Positions 40,465 to 46,408 of a stretch of 64,000 nucleotides of DNA are shown piece by piece. Source of the DNA: Acholeplasmataceae bacterium (GTDB lineage Bacteria > Bacillota_I > Bacilli_A > Acholeplasmatales > Acholeplasmataceae); NCBI GenBank assembly GCA_018400755.1, contig JAGYLU010000002.1, forward strand, positions 62,001 to 126,000, given 5' to 3'. Below the pieces are notes generated by a model, which was not told the origin of the DNA, searched no databases, and saw only the letters and a program-made list of their open reading frames with translations. Position 1 is the stretch's first letter. Each line of letters starts with the position of its first letter. Made by a program: the position numbers and the translations under genes.

Positions 40465-41067
40465 ATGGTGATACCAATGACGCGTATTTTGATAGCGACC
40501 CACAACCGAAACAAGCTTAATGAGTTCCAACGAATCTTCAACAACGAGAATGTGACGCTGGTGACATTAGAAGATCTCCATGACCAGGCCGAGGTCATCG
40601 AAGACGGCTCGTCGTTTGTTGACAATGCCAAATTGAAAGCATCCTATTTCGCGATGAAGCATCAGATGCCAACGATTGCTGATGACTCAGGACTTGTCGT
40701 TGACGCTTTGGGTGGGTTTCCAGGCGTTCATTCCGCCAGATACAGCGGCAAGGGCGACGAAGCCAACAATTTGAAATTGCTTTCTGAATTGGAGGATATT
40801 GACAATCGTTCTGCCCATTTTGTGGCAGCCATCGTCTTTTGTCGTCCGAATGGCGAATGCCGGACCTATGAAGGCATGGTCAATGGCGAAATCACCAGAT
40901 CTCTTCGTGGAGATCAGGGATTTGGCTATGATCCCTTGTTCTATGTCCCTAAACTGAAGATGACGTTTGGCGAAGCCACTTCCGATCTTAAGGACCGGAT
41001 GTCTCATCGGGCGATCGCCTTGTCTAAACTGATGGAGGATCTTGATGCGCTTATTGATCACGAGTGA
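40465..41067 (+). CDS. rdgB: XTP/dITP diphosphatase (RdgB/HAM1)
   Basis: The enzyme removes non-canonical purine nucleotides from the pool. The protein starts MTRILIATHNRNKLNEFQ after a possible four-codon extension. It has ADDSGLVVDALGGFPGVHSARYSG and ending motifs GDQGFGYDPLFYVP and MSHRAIALSKL, all diagnostic. ATG 40465 has GAGGG nearby; ATG 40477 matches the usual family start. It overlaps the next gene by 23 bases. Confidence 0.95.
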   Translation: MVIPMTRILIATHNRNKLNEFQRIFNNENVTLVTLEDLHDQAEVIEDGSSFVDNAKLKASYFAMKHQMPTIADDSGLVVDALGGFPGVHSARYSGKGDEANNLKLLSELEDIDNRSAHFVAAIVFCRPNGECRTYEGMVNGEITRSLRGDQGFGYDPLFYVPKLKMTFGEATSDLKDRMSHRAIALSKLMEDLDALIDHE

Positions 41068-41494
41068 TATCCATGGGGACCGTGATGCGCTTGAAGCCGT
41101 GATCAAAAAACACCCAGACATCGACACACATCTGAACGCCGGTGATCTATCACTTGAGAAACAGGTGCTTGAACAGTATCATCTGATTGCGGTCAAGGGC
41201 AATAATGATTTCCTTTTGGACCTACCTTTGTTTCGAGTGCTTCAGTTTGAGACCCTGAGGGTCTTTTTGACCCATGGTCACTTGGAACATGTCAAGATGT
41301 CACTTGATCGATTGCGCTTGAAAGCCAGTATCCATCAGGCCAATCTTGTCATCTTTGGCCACACCCACAAACCATATCTGACACAAGAAAACGGCATCAT
41401 ATTTCTGAATCCAGGAGCGCTTGGTGACCATCGTCATAGTTATGCCGTCTATGATCACGGAGAGGTCACCTTCCACAATGTCTATGAACCATGA
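41045..41494 (+). CDS. YfcE/MJ0936-family phosphodiesterase
   Basis: The 149-residue calcineurin-like enzyme has the metal motifs LITSDIHGDRDALE, LNAGDLS, VKGNNDF, THGH and FGHTHKPYL. The YfcE/MJ0936 family hydrolyses phosphodiester bonds; the natural substrate is uncertain. It follows rdgB as in many Bacillota, overlapping its end with GGAGG in front of ATG 41045. Confidence 0.92.
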   Translation: MRLLITSDIHGDRDALEAVIKKHPDIDTHLNAGDLSLEKQVLEQYHLIAVKGNNDFLLDLPLFRVLQFETLRVFLTHGHLEHVKMSLDRLRLKASIHQANLVIFGHTHKPYLTQENGIIFLNPGALGDHRHSYAVYDHGEVTFHNVYEP

Positions 41495-42350
41495 GCAACT
41501 GATCATCGAACGAGCTGCCAAGGCCTTTGGTGTGAGCGAAGAACACATTATGATCATTGGTCGCCTGATGGGCGGCATGAGTCATCTGACCTACCATATC
41601 CGGATCAAGGAAGAGGATTTCACCTACCGAATCATCGGCGAGGGCGGGAATTTGTTCGTCGACCGGCGCATTGAATATGACAATCTTGTCAGGATTGAAC
41701 CCCTAGGCATCAACAACGAGACCATCTTTTTTGATACTCAGACCGGAGACAAGGCCGCACGGTTTGTCAAGGGCCACGTCCTGTCCGACATTGATTTTGA
41801 AGCACACCTTAACACTTTGGCAAAAACCCTTCACAAACTTCATGACCATGTCTTTGAGGACGCCCCTGATTATGGGCTGGTTGATCGGTTGAGTTTGTAT
41901 GAAAGTTACACACAAGGCAATCATCCAAAATACCTTGAACTGAAAAAACTATGGATCAAAAGATATCAGAAGAGTCATGCCAACAAACCCAAGGTGTTTT
42001 GTCACAACGATGCCCAACGATCAAATATCGTCATTGGAGACCAACTCTATCTTCTTGATTGGGAATATGCCGGAAACAACGAGTTCTATTATGACATTGC
42101 CAGTTTCGGAAATATCCGCTTTGAAGATGCCTTCTTGTTGCTAGAGGCCTATCTTGGCCGAAAAGCGACTTCGGCAGAACGTGATCATGTCCGTTTTTAT
42201 CGGATGTTTCAGGCTCTGCAGTGGCATCAGGTCGCTTCCTACAAAGCGCAGACTGATCTGGCCAAGATCGTCGGATTCGATTTCAATATGCTTGCCCATA
42301 AATATCTCGATCTTGCTGAGAGATTGTGGACTGAAATCAAAAAAAGGTGA
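41478..42350 (+). CDS. Choline-kinase-like phosphotransferase
   Basis: The roughly 290-residue protein is of the APH/choline kinase fold. It has LMGGMSHLTYHIRIKEEDFT in place of the glycine-rich loop, the catalytic loop VFCHNDAQRSNIVIGD, and the metal motif LYLLDWEYAGNNEFYYDIAS. It resembles LicA-type choline kinases, which phosphorylate choline or ethanolamine for decoration of surface glycolipids, but the substrate cannot be fixed. ATG 41478 and 41484 are both possible starts inside the end of the previous gene. Confidence 0.8.
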   Translation: MSMNHEQLIIERAAKAFGVSEEHIMIIGRLMGGMSHLTYHIRIKEEDFTYRIIGEGGNLFVDRRIEYDNLVRIEPLGINNETIFFDTQTGDKAARFVKGHVLSDIDFEAHLNTLAKTLHKLHDHVFEDAPDYGLVDRLSLYESYTQGNHPKYLELKKLWIKRYQKSHANKPKVFCHNDAQRSNIVIGDQLYLLDWEYAGNNEFYYDIASFGNIRFEDAFLLLEAYLGRKATSAERDHVRFYRMFQALQWHQVASYKAQTDLAKIVGFDFNMLAHKYLDLAERLWTEIKKR

Positions 42351-42354
42351 CGAG

Positions 42355-45354
42355 ATGCGTTTGTCTGATGTCGTGAATTTGCCAATTGAACCCGCCAGTT
42401 TGGAACAGATCAAAGGTTATCTCGACCAAACGCGCACCCATACGGAATACCAGGCAGCCTATGCCAGGTATTTTGACATTGCTCTTGAACTGGATCTTTT
42501 TCAGTTGGTTTTTGATGAGGGTGAGCTGGTCTTGAAAGACATCATTCATCAGAGCCAAACAGCTTATCAGGAACAGATTCTTGGTTCGATGATCACCGCT
42601 GGCCTGGCTCTTGAAAAACATGACCAGGTCAAGGCATTGATTGAGATGCGTCAACAAACTCTTCCGGTCTTGAAGTCCTATCTTGCCACTTTGGATCTGA
42701 TCAGGTATAAGAAGTCACTCAATCTGCCGGTTTTGGAAGATCTCATGAAAGTCCTTGATGACCAGATCCCAGAGTCCATCAGAATTGATTGTCTAAGTGA
42801 GATGGCTGCTTTATACCAGGCTGATCATCAATACGATATGGCACTCAACTGCATCCATGAACTGCACCAGTTTGATCTTGAGGAAGTGTTTCTAAAAGAG
42901 GAGCTTCATTTGCTTGATTTGCTCAAACGATACAAAGATGTGAAGAAAATCGCTTTGGAGACACTTCGAAAAAAGACGTTTGTCTCGTATGCGGTCAATG
43001 CCCTATTGAGTGTCTATCTCAAGGAGGAGGACTTCCAAAAAGCGCAGAACCTCGATGCTGACTATGAAGTCTTGATGGAACAAGCTGATGAGGCCGATCG
43101 GAAACGGTTCTATCAACTGATGATTGACCTTTATGAGAAACTTGGAAACAAACTGTCTCTTGAACTCTATCAAAAAAAGCTGAAATCCCTTGTCAAAGCC
43201 GTTGATCGCAAGCAAAAGAACAAGACTGACCATCCGGAAAAACCGGTACTTGTCATCGCGCCACCTGAACGCAAAGCGTTTCGCAGAGCACATCTGGCTG
43301 AGCATTTCGAACTTGCAAACGCCCTGATGACGTTTGAACGGACGCTATTGGAACGACCTTTGTTCAGGGACTATCTGAGAGACCTCTTCATGTTTGTGGC
43401 CAAACGGATTGAGATGCATGATGTGGTTCTCTATCTCAAAGAAGCATCACCGAACTTTTTCAATTACAAGAAAGAACGGCTCTACGACAAGACCGTGGTC
43501 CCCGAATGGATTGAGGGGACCGTGATCGAAAAAGTCCTTGAGGCGAAAGACGATATTTTCGAATATGCCCAGACCATTCGCTACAAGAAAGATGTCATCA
43601 CCCAAAAGGATTACGCTGATGACATCAGGTTCATCTATGCCTATCATCTTCAAGGCCATGGTGTACTTGTCATTCTCTTGGCTGAGGAACTCTCTGATGC
43701 CGGGGCTTACTATGACATTTTCAAACTGCTTTCGAATCTGATCTTGAGTCATCTTCTTTTGGAGGAACATACCAAACGGCTCAAGACCGACATCAGATAT
43801 TACGAGGAGATTTTTCAAAGTCCCTTGTTGGCTTACCGTGATATGACTGAGACATTTTCAACCTATAATCATCACGCCCAGAAAATGCTCGGGGTTGAGG
43901 CCCATACGCATATTGAACTCTTTATCAAAGACATCGCCTATGATCATGTGAGAAAAGTCAAAGACACGGTTGACAGATTGTTTCAAAGTGCCGGACAATC
44001 AAGTGCCATCACCTATCAACGTCAGAACAAAACGATTGTTGAGTCGATGATTTCCCTCAGGGTCAATGATGACATTCACATCGTCAGTCTCTTTGAAGAC
44101 CAGACCAAGGATGTCGAAAAAGTCAAGTCGCTCATCACGATGGCGACGACAGATGATGAGACCGGACTTTTTAACATGCATGCCTTGAACAACATGATTG
44201 AAGAACACCTTGAAGACAAAGCCACGTTGTTCATGATCGAGTTTGATCGGTCATTGAAACACATCTATGGGATGAAAAGAATGTCTCAATTCTTCAAGGA
44301 GTTCGCCCAGGTGACAAAGAAGTTCTTTTCTGACGGAACGGCTTATCGAAGCGATTTCTCGACACTTATAGTGATCCTTCCCCAAAACGATGTACGCAGT
44401 GTGACCAAACGCGTCAAAGCCTATCTCAAACATCTTGAGACGCATCAATCAAAGGTCTTGGCCTTTGAGAAATTCGCATGCCAAATCGGCATTCTCAGAT
44501 ACCCGGTAGCCACCTCGGACAAACGGCTTGAGCAGTTGTTGAGCTATCTTGAGATCGCCCTTGAACGGGCCAAGCAAAGCAGTGATGAGCCTTTCGTCTT
44601 CTTTGTCTACCGTGATTATGAGGATGACGTGTTTGAGCAGCAGGTCATTGACCAACTGAATTTAGCGATCGAGACCAAGAATGTCGGTCTTTCCTTCAAA
44701 CAACTGACCGACATCGAAAGCAACAAGATCTGGCATTATGAGAGTACGCTCTCATTGGCCAATCTTGAGGTAGACAGCAAGTATCTATCGGTCATCGCAA
44801 GGAAACGTCATCGGACCAAAGACCTTGAACACTTTCACATCGACCGGGTCTTGTCCTATCTTCAGTCACTTGAACAAAAGACCGGTCGCCTGGTCAAACT
44901 GACGATTCCGGTCTCGAAGGAGACATTCTTGGATCCTAAGTTCAACCCCTATGTCATCGAGCGGCTCAAGACCTATTCAATTCCCGCGGCGTTTATCAGA
45001 TTGAAGCTTGAAGCGACCTTGAGACCAAGTTTGTACGCCACCCAGCTAAGTGAGCTTTCAGACTATGGGATTGCTGTCGATACGACCAGTCTAGAGACCG
45101 CACTGTCCTATCCGGTCTGTGCCTTGCATCTTGATCTTCCAAGACCGACCGATAAACAACATGGATATCTGAAGATGGTGAAGACCATGCTTCTGTCCTT
45201 TGAAATTGATCTTGTCATCAGAAATGTCATGAACAGAGACCAGAAGGAAGCTTTGAAACAACTTGGCATCACATTGATTGAAGGTCCGATCTACAAGACC
45301 TTGTCGGAAACTGTGCTCACCGACAAAGTCAAGGGGGCGTTGACCCATGCATGA
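42355..45354 (+). CDS. Large protein with helical repeats, GAF/PAS-like part and degenerate GGDEF-EAL
   Basis: A 999-residue cytoplasmic protein without membrane segments. Residues 1-290 are TPR-like helical repeats. About 310-510 looks like a GAF-type sensor, and 510-620 like a PAS-type domain. Residues 620-780 align with a GGDEF fold (TTDDETGLFNMHALNNMIEE), but the active loop reads RSDFS at 665-669. Residues 785-999 resemble an EAL domain with EST at 796-798 instead of EAL and LKLEATLRPS later. Both catalytic sites appear lost, so it is probably a c-di-GMP-type sensor or scaffold rather than an enzyme. It overlaps the next gene by 8 bases. Confidence 0.72.
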   Translation: MRLSDVVNLPIEPASLEQIKGYLDQTRTHTEYQAAYARYFDIALELDLFQLVFDEGELVLKDIIHQSQTAYQEQILGSMITAGLALEKHDQVKALIEMRQQTLPVLKSYLATLDLIRYKKSLNLPVLEDLMKVLDDQIPESIRIDCLSEMAALYQADHQYDMALNCIHELHQFDLEEVFLKEELHLLDLLKRYKDVKKIALETLRKKTFVSYAVNALLSVYLKEEDFQKAQNLDADYEVLMEQADEADRKRFYQLMIDLYEKLGNKLSLELYQKKLKSLVKAVDRKQKNKTDHPEKPVLVIAPPERKAFRRAHLAEHFELANALMTFERTLLERPLFRDYLRDLFMFVAKRIEMHDVVLYLKEASPNFFNYKKERLYDKTVVPEWIEGTVIEKVLEAKDDIFEYAQTIRYKKDVITQKDYADDIRFIYAYHLQGHGVLVILLAEELSDAGAYYDIFKLLSNLILSHLLLEEHTKRLKTDIRYYEEIFQSPLLAYRDMTETFSTYNHHAQKMLGVEAHTHIELFIKDIAYDHVRKVKDTVDRLFQSAGQSSAITYQRQNKTIVESMISLRVNDDIHIVSLFEDQTKDVEKVKSLITMATTDDETGLFNMHALNNMIEEHLEDKATLFMIEFDRSLKHIYGMKRMSQFFKEFAQVTKKFFSDGTAYRSDFSTLIVILPQNDVRSVTKRVKAYLKHLETHQSKVLAFEKFACQIGILRYPVATSDKRLEQLLSYLEIALERAKQSSDEPFVFFVYRDYEDDVFEQQVIDQLNLAIETKNVGLSFKQLTDIESNKIWHYESTLSLANLEVDSKYLSVIARKRHRTKDLEHFHIDRVLSYLQSLEQKTGRLVKLTIPVSKETFLDPKFNPYVIERLKTYSIPAAFIRLKLEATLRPSLYATQLSELSDYGIAVDTTSLETALSYPVCALHLDLPRPTDKQHGYLKMVKTMLLSFEIDLVIRNVMNRDQKEALKQLGITLIEGPIYKTLSETVLTDKVKGALTHA

Positions 45355-46408
45355 TACTTTGAAAGATTTTGTCAAACGACTCCCAGATGATCAATCAAGC
45401 AGCCATTCAGCCCGGGCACGCTCAGCCTTTGATATGCTTTCCTATGTTGATCTGATGCTTGACGCCTTTTTTGACCACAAGCAAGATGATCAAGGGACGT
45501 TGATGCTTGATGTTTTTGGCTTTCTTCAAGCACTATTTGTCGGAATCGACGCCTTATATGATCTTTCCATCGGTCTGACATCCTATAAGTATCACGTCAA
45601 TGTCAACAAGAATGATACACTTAGAGAACTCAAATTCATCAGAAACGATATTGTTGGGCATCCGACTCATCGGACCTACTATGACGGCGGTACTGGGTTC
45701 TCAACCGTGGTCTCAGGGGCGGTCTCAAAGACCTCACTGACCTATGAGACCTACATCTATCGGAGGAACCGATTCGATGTCGAACGGCGAAGTGTTGACT
45801 TTCTCACCCTGTCAAACCAGTACCAGAAAGAAAAAGATCAAATCATCAAAGATCTTCTGAGATATCTGGAGAAAAAGCAAGAGACCAGTGGTCTCTCTGA
45901 CTTGGTTTTCAGGGTCTTTGAGACCTTGAATGCAGATTTGCTAGAAGAGATTGTTTCGACATATCAAAGGACGTATGGACTTGATCAGCACTCCAAGAAT
46001 CGCTTTCTATGGCGGGCTGACCTTCTCAAAAAAGCCATCTTCTGGAAAGAACATGATCCAGACAAGCGCGCCTTTGTGATCTATGCCGCTAAAAAGCAGG
46101 CGGAAAAACTCTATGATATCCTAAGTGACCTTGACAATGTCAAACGCGAGTCTCTCTACGTCTCGCTTCCGGATTGTCTGTCCGGTTTTTACCGGGCCAT
46201 GCGCCGGCATGAGGATGAGGCTTATCCTTTGCTTGCCAATGTCCATGACCGTTCCCACCCTTTGTTCAGAAGTGACATCGAGAGCTTGAAAGGCTATCTT
46301 CAATCAAAGGATTCAACGTTGTTGCTTGATTGGCTTTTGGATCTTAAGGACCCCGATCACGTTTATTTGATCGGTTCGATCCTCAGAATGTATCGTCCAA
46401 GACGATAA
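45347..46408 (+). CDS. HEPN-like protein coupled to the degenerate GGDEF-EAL protein
   Basis: This 353-residue all-helical protein has no clear family name. Near residue 99 the motif FIRNDIVGHPTHR fits the R-x4-6-H signature of HEPN domains, in which Arg and His form an RNase active site. The preceding helix (LDVFGFLQALFVGIDALYDL) fits HEPN topology. The C-terminal 200 residues are helical and charged. The start lies within the last codons of the preceding gene, so the two are translated together and probably act as a pair. Confidence 0.6.
   Translation: MHDTLKDFVKRLPDDQSSSHSARARSAFDMLSYVDLMLDAFFDHKQDDQGTLMLDVFGFLQALFVGIDALYDLSIGLTSYKYHVNVNKNDTLRELKFIRNDIVGHPTHRTYYDGGTGFSTVVSGAVSKTSLTYETYIYRRNRFDVERRSVDFLTLSNQYQKEKDQIIKDLLRYLEKKQETSGLSDLVFRVFETLNADLLEEIVSTYQRTYGLDQHSKNRFLWRADLLKKAIFWKEHDPDKRAFVIYAAKKQAEKLYDILSDLDNVKRESLYVSLPDCLSGFYRAMRRHEDEAYPLLANVHDRSHPLFRSDIESLKGYLQSKDSTLLLDWLLDLKDPDHVYLIGSILRMYRPRR

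Follow-up and report, generated by a model that had tools for sequence, protein, structure and literature searches.

What could be the task of a 353-amino-acid (aa) protein whose gene begins inside the end of a gene for a degenerate GGDEF-EAL sensor? The question is raised by a 64,000-nucleotide stretch of an Acholeplasmataceae bacterium (contig JAGYLU010000002.1, positions 62,001 to 126,000; hereafter the window), in which the smaller protein, P1, follows the sensor, P2. The original prediction took P1 for a HEPN ribonuclease (RNase) coupled to the sensor, likened the two to stress or defence systems and did not recognise the pairing from elsewhere. We propose, with a probability of roughly 0.45, that P2 is a resident sensor which acts independently of cyclic di-GMP (c-di-GMP) and controls a HEPN-type RNase, P1, in translation or nucleotide stress, and we find that P1 and P2 form a core, vertically inherited pair of an order of wall-less bacteria.

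The P1 open reading frame (ORF) is present as claimed, with residues 97-109 reading FIRNDIVGHPTHR, the R99 codon at 45641-45643 and the H105 codon at 45659-45661, and its start overlaps the upstream frame by the 8 bases that had been counted (Table 1). Such overlap is conserved in 52 of the 55 loci in which the two genes are linked, 36 of them overlapping by exactly 4 bp when start codons are set at the most upstream position. Taken alone the motif proves little, since the loose pattern R[NDH]x3-5H is common in the window (10 matches in 50 non-overlapping ORFs of 19,643 aa, ~0.18 per 353 aa), and it is invariance that carries weight. Orthologues were sought with the whole protein in 61 genomes, that of the window and those of 60 relatives, and alignment A1 holds 45 full-length P1 sequences, fetched without use of the motif and cleared of duplicates and of P1 ORFs under 290 aa. 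A further 80 loci were fetched through the pattern RND[IV]VGHP, so that alignment A2 (66 rows, made up of P0001 and 65 of these loci, the rest dropped as split or redundant) cannot test the motif, whereas A1 can; a motif-clustering P value derived from A2 was discarded, and the one reported here uses A1. Alignment A3 comprises the window protein and 36 loci. The A1 orthologues are 22 to 49% identical to the window P1 (n=45), and all 45 keep R99, N100, D101, G104, H105, P106 and R109, so that the Arg and His on which the prediction hinged are conserved without exception. Seven of the 18 invariant columns lie within residues 99-109, a stretch of 11 (hypergeometric P 7e-8); further invariant residues include Q61, D68, Y71, K81, N85, N89, K96, Y133 and R219. 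The motif is found in 48 of 52 distinct P1-matching ORFs, the remaining four being fragments that do not span its site. As a separate observation, P1 is split into two frames, by decay or sequencing error, in L144 (4582-5632), L138 (805-1832), L120 (6992-8280) and L077 (2061-3147), the last with a split P2 as well.

Structurally, the comparison with HEPN proteins rests on the predicted model. According to an excerpt of PMC3710099, in HEPN domains helix 3 ends with Rx4-6H, the R being followed by a polar residue (mostly N, D or H), helices 2 and 3 are separated by an insert, and helix 2 bears an acidic residue, frequently in the form E-x3-[KR]; Csx1 has a beta-hairpin directly behind the motif, and some HEPN domains without the motif are thought to work without cleavage. 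The window protein together with 65 homologues gave a confident P1 model (mean predicted local distance difference test score 92.6, predicted template-modelling score 0.89) that is mostly helical, with helices 20-43, 49-78, 90-104 and 152-175 and strands 116-151 between the last two. This predicted order of helices is compatible with the HEPN scheme of two alpha-hairpins that form a four-helix core, with an insert at 79-89 between helices 2 and 3; helix 90-104 contains R99, H105 is the next residue after it, and the long helix 152-175 follows. N100, right after R99 in 45 of 45, matches the polar trait, and the invariant D68 in helix 49-78 could take the acidic helix-2 position, but the residue at +4 is D72.

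Several results weigh against the HEPN assignment. The E-x3-[KR] pattern is replaced by D68-x3-D72; Pfam, NCBIfam and PADLOC searches with the window P1 returned no family that identifies it as HEPN; the 45 A1 members in Pfam and the 66 A2 members in PADLOC and NCBIfam gave scattered weak matches of 1-3 members each; and consensus sequences of the N-terminal 180 residues were unmatched to HEPN in Pfam. The best Pfam match of a P1 consensus was DUF1623 (E 0.0022, under the cut-off, for one of three consensus sequences), and a sequence search of solved structures reached at best E 0.14 and 0.09, to designed helical proteins or unrelated domains. Foldseek of P1 against the PDB gave no match with E below 0.16; in a repeat PDB look, entries of RnlA were the only HEPN rows recognised and ranked under unrelated helical proteins, the RnlA HEPN part standing at ranks 47-48 with Z 5.1 over 73-92 residues, within noise; and a BFVD fold search gave no match above noise. 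Moreover, the invariant residues outnumber R/H and are more polar as a set, which leaves room for other chemistry. By hhalign, P1 reached a probability of 1% to RnlA and 0.1% to Abi_C, and the control comparison of RnlA with Abi_C reached 0.2% (Abi_C represented by 2 sequences only). Abi_C is an accepted HEPN family. RnlA is likewise accepted in the excerpt of PMC3710099, and since these two fail to match each other, the profile and fold failures of P1 say little; an absent fold match does not exclude a HEPN fold for P1. Membership of RnlA itself was rejected (no profile relation, most RnlA rows carrying RHxxxH), as was membership of Abi_C, whose motif is similar but which shows no profile relation. 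The HEPN reading of P1 is supported, not proven: of the signature first proposed, the conserved Arg/His and the HEPN-like placement of the motif in a confident model stood, whereas superfamily membership by profile or fold was left unconfirmed, and of the comparison with HEPN families the helix order fits and the profiles gave no match above noise. We consider a HEPN-like fold probable and lean, less firmly, towards RNase activity.

The upstream gene is indeed a degenerate GGDEF-EAL gene, as had been stated, for among 62 distinct P2 ORFs longer than 880 aa none keeps GGDEF (GG[DE]EF A-site), DDFG or AEG[VI]E. The DDFG loop is deleted in alignment with same-genome EAL domains that keep it, and among the EAL residues checked (n=37) only the first Glu is usually kept (29/37), the Glu of AEGVE has become Arg in 27, the Asn of NxS Pro in 25 and the Lys His in 29. 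Judged by these residues, P2 is not an active c-di-GMP enzyme, both its GGDEF and EAL sites being dead. Pfam finds only EAL on the window P2, TPR models passing cut-offs in two distant homologues, and the model places a disordered linker between the TPR-like helices and the GAF-like region. Foldseek of the C-terminal part retrieves DosP and PA0861 best and MorA too (E 1e-20 to 6e-19), with FimX and LapD among the matches; DosP, PA0861 and MorA, all PAS-GGDEF-EAL proteins, share the fold of this part, but the catalytic GGDEF and EAL motifs are missing from P2, which has added TPR- and GAF-like parts.

Evolutionarily, the two proteins travel together. P1 occurs in 48 and P2 in 56 of the 61 genomes (whole-protein search), P1 without P2 in 0 of 48 and P2 without P1 in 8 of 56 (Fisher 2e-4, kinship uncorrected); in at least one of these eight, G020, the absence of P1 may reflect a contig break, as P2 reaches the contig end (L098). 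Among the 80 loci, P2 adjoins P1 in 55 and is absent from the fetched flanks in 25. In family f3 the two genes are on different contigs, and both are kept in all 10 searched P1-bearing genomes. An even draw across the phylum yielded P1 in 37 of 392 genomes, 35 of them belonging to the window's order and the other two to a single further family of the class, and none in the draw's six genomes of genus g8, which are small (0.7-0.8 or 0.9 Mb) and were judged phytoplasma-like; the named relatives are Acholeplasma, Haploplasma, Paracholeplasma, Peloplasma and many Acholeplasmatales or Anaeroplasmataceae assemblies. The pair was unmatched in 50,697 phage records, 72,556 plasmid records and viral contigs. 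The likeness to stress or defence systems thus failed in its defence part, the pair being a vertically inherited core module and neither a defence island nor a mobile toxin-antitoxin.

From the perspective of gene context, the main lineages show the order RdgB/HAM1 - YfcE - kinase - P2 - P1, in many then with a 65-aa ORF. Four outgroup loci (L166, L167, L170 and L176) show apt - rel - dtd - P2 - P1 instead (the L176 locus ends within apt), with Rel and Dtd over curated cut-offs in all four; a fifth, L178, was too short, and L245 and L246, taken as the same contigs as L170 and L176, were not counted again. In 22 of the 25 unlinked loci a TypA/BipA-cluster gene is next after P1 on the same strand, at 41-90 bp (exceptions L158, L177 and L180); the TypA cut-off is passed by the two members of that cluster tested, and in the two loci of this kind examined (L099, L100) P2 remains beside HAM1-YfcE. 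BipA binds guanosine tetraphosphate (ppGpp) and ribosomes, according to an excerpt of PMC4543647; of the three contexts, those with rel-dtd and with TypA/BipA thus bear on translation or the stringent response. TypA was judged present in 48 of the 61 genomes (45 over the cut-off, and G000, G023 and G040 with partial or near matches), of which 42 have P1; Rel, over its cut-off in 59 of 61, is uninformative as to co-distribution.

Taken together, we posit the following course of events. P1 would represent a HEPN-like family that has no name as yet and would most likely be an RNase that needs no metal, with an active site formed by R99, N100 and H105 and aided by D68 and other invariant polar residues. 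The TPR-, GAF- and PAS-like parts of P2 might sense a protein or small-ligand signal, and its dead GGDEF-EAL end could serve as a protein-interaction platform that contacts P1 rather than as a c-di-GMP enzyme, with coupled translation setting a fixed P1:P2 ratio. P2 would then either keep P1 inactive or license it, the co-occurrence pattern being compatible with P2 as inhibitor and as activator, and under stress P1 would cut translation-apparatus RNA (tRNA, rRNA or mRNA), so that growth is slowed or reprogrammed. Tied to the stringent response by the rel-dtd context of the outgroup and the TypA/BipA context of one family, such a core circuit, in which the dead sensor directly gates a translation-targeting HEPN RNase, is a tentative extension that we rather doubt. 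Other observations count against the proposal. The mirror-tree partial r of P1-P2 is 0.38, against 0.44 for P1-kinase and 0.40 for P1-Ham1 (32 loci), a signal that is not specific and so was not used as support; the P1-TypA and rel-dtd contexts may each go back to one inherited event; and an obligatory dependence of P1 on TypA was rejected, 6 of the 13 genomes judged to be without TypA keeping P1.

The alternatives differ in which partner they reinterpret. P1 might have the HEPN-like fold but no nuclease activity, acting as a nucleotide- or RNA-binding scaffold, or as an enzyme of other chemistry, that carries the P2 signal to the ribosome or another target. The many invariant residues beyond R/H (those named above together with D101 and R109) speak for such a role, as do the profile and fold searches that ended without a match and the HEPN domains that, in the excerpt of PMC3710099, lack the motif and are thought not to cleave; since R, N and H are fully invariant, with the spacing and placement of a working HEPN RNase, we think it possible but on the whole unlikely. 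Reinterpreting P2 leads to a c-di-GMP receptor with P1 as its output. The window's genome has 16 GGDEF and 5 EAL matches, and the organism probably makes c-di-GMP. Furthermore, FimX and LapD, which appear among the fold matches of P2, are dead GGDEF-EAL proteins that bind c-di-GMP. The EAL residues of P2 are mostly replaced and its DDFG loop is deleted, though, and six genomes of three genera (G007, G008, G021, G042, G049 and G053; 90-99% complete) have both P1 and P2 and no intact GGDEF, any GGDEF match in them being P2 itself or a ~510-535-aa protein without the GGDEF motif. As the pair is kept there, c-di-GMP is not required, and we regard a receptor role as very improbable.

HEPN RNases are known mostly from phage defence, CRISPR and toxin-antitoxin modules, and two further readings make the pair a conflict system. 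A growth-inhibiting RNase P1 held by an antitoxin P2 would fit the overlapping genes and the one-sided co-occurrence, in which P1 never stands without P2. It is nevertheless improbable, since the pair shows no mobility, being absent from the phage, plasmid and viral-contig records, sits in a conserved syntenic core operon, is kept in 10 of 10 searched P1-bearing genomes of f3 on different contigs, and has as its supposed antitoxin a 999-aa multi-domain sensor rather than a small linked protein. An anti-phage system with a HEPN effector, in line with the many HEPN effectors that are defence RNases in the excerpt of PMC3710099, is very improbable: PADLOC assigned no family to either protein at E up to 5, the 66 P1 homologues gave 1-2 members per weak match, the neighbours are housekeeping genes and inheritance is vertical.

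Among known systems, the proposed control of P1 by P2 may be analogous to that of CsrD with RNase E. CsrD has degenerate sites and works without c-di-GMP. As an excerpt of PMC5027483 describes it, this Escherichia coli GGDEF-EAL protein steers RNA decay by RNase E on an EIIA-Glc signal, which resembles P2 in its proposed role as a GGDEF-EAL protein controlling RNA turnover. The partner of CsrD, however, is the housekeeping RNase E, whereas that of P2 is a dedicated, co-translated and presumed HEPN-like nuclease, and P2 has TPR-, GAF- and PAS-like domains in contrast to the CsrD architecture. Within HEPN proteins, the RnlA/LsoA and Csx1/Csm6 branches share with P1 an R-x4-6-H motif that closes helix 3 and has a polar residue behind its R, and Csx1 likewise carries a beta insert following the motif (excerpt of PMC3710099). 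Their sequences show no detectable relation to that of P1, which moreover has no tie to CRISPR, to a small antitoxin or to defence against phages. Two Abi_C (PF14355) proteins from Bacilli have motifs, RNSYGSGHG and RNKESDSHG, that resemble the RNDIVGHP of P1, in another domain context and with no profile match. The open-licence literature on HEPN with GGDEF and EAL does not describe the pairing, which agrees with its having been unrecognised at the outset; that literature held nothing on Acholeplasma with HEPN, and titles and abstract openings disclosed nothing on P1-P2 for Acholeplasma with c-di-GMP and no such pairing among the matches listed for BipA with HEPN. A 2008 paper in the Acholeplasma laidlawii GGDEF literature notes 14 GGDEF/EAL proteins and does not show the pairing. 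If our proposal holds, an order would have a HEPN-like effector, gated by a dead GGDEF-EAL sensor, as a fixed part of its core genome; this would represent a housekeeping use of the HEPN fold and, beside CsrD, another instance in which RNA turnover is controlled by a retired protein of c-di-GMP type. It would also offer a handle on growth regulation in small-genome, wall-less bacteria, in which P1-P2 is possibly a built-in adjustment of RNA and protein synthesis under stress.

Table 1 Features of the P1-P2 locus, in window positions.
Feature	Position	Strand	Basis or remark
P2 sensor, 999 aa (TPR-like, GAF-like, PAS-like, dead GGDEF, dead EAL)	42355-45354	+	Model, fold and family matches
P2 1-290, TPR-like helical repeats	42355-43224	+	Model; TPR matches in distant homologues
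P2 337-452, GAF-like	43363-43710	+	Model; named by helix/strand order, no family match
P2 486-582, PAS-like	43810-44100	+	Model and fold match; weak PAS match in distant homologue
P2 600-750, GGDEF fold without GGDEF motif	44152-44604	+	Model, fold match, alignment
P2 752-999, EAL fold, catalytic residues lost, DDFG loop deleted	44608-45351	+	Family and fold match, alignment
Shine-Dalgarno-like AAGGGGG within P2 3' end	45331-45337	+	~9 nt ahead of P1 ATG
Overlap of P2 end and P1 start, 8 bp	45347-45354	+	Sequence; P2 frame ends at 45354
P1	45347-46408	+	ATG start, 353-aa ORF
P1 HEPN-like domain, ~residues 15-180			Predicted model
P1 C-terminal helical domain, residues 180-353			Predicted model
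R99-N-D-I-V-G-H105, predicted active-site motif (R-x5-H)	45641-45661	+	Invariant in 45/45; end of modelled helix 90-104
Three beta strands, P1 residues 116-151, soon after motif	45692-45799	+	Modelled secondary structure
RdgB/HAM1-type nucleoside triphosphate pyrophosphatase	40471-41067	+	Conserved operon neighbour
YfcE-type phosphodiesterase	41060-41494	+	Conserved operon neighbour
Choline-kinase/APH-family kinase (presumably YtmP-like)	41481-42350	+	Conserved operon neighbour
65-aa conserved ORF, downstream of P1	46453-46650	+	No accepted Pfam or NCBIfam family

The 65-aa downstream ORF is conserved across much of the family. Behind P1 in the outgroup stands a membrane-like ORF of 284-382 aa (L166 8034-9182, L167 7898-8785, L170 8019-8873, L176 7094-8203), without a Pfam family in the two tested and followed by genes resembling nusB and xseA on visual inspection. 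A DUF815 AAA-type ATPase cluster gene lies upstream of P1, not always directly, in 11 of the 25 unlinked loci (L174, L179 and nine others). Finally, a 504-535-aa protein (L217, L218, L219, L220, L221, L222, L223, L224 and L226) recurs in genomes without an intact GGDEF protein and may be another c-di-GMP-independent regulator. It starts with a hydrophobic stretch in its N-terminal part, mostly has PAS-like domains, and its C-terminal GGDEF domain lacks the motif.

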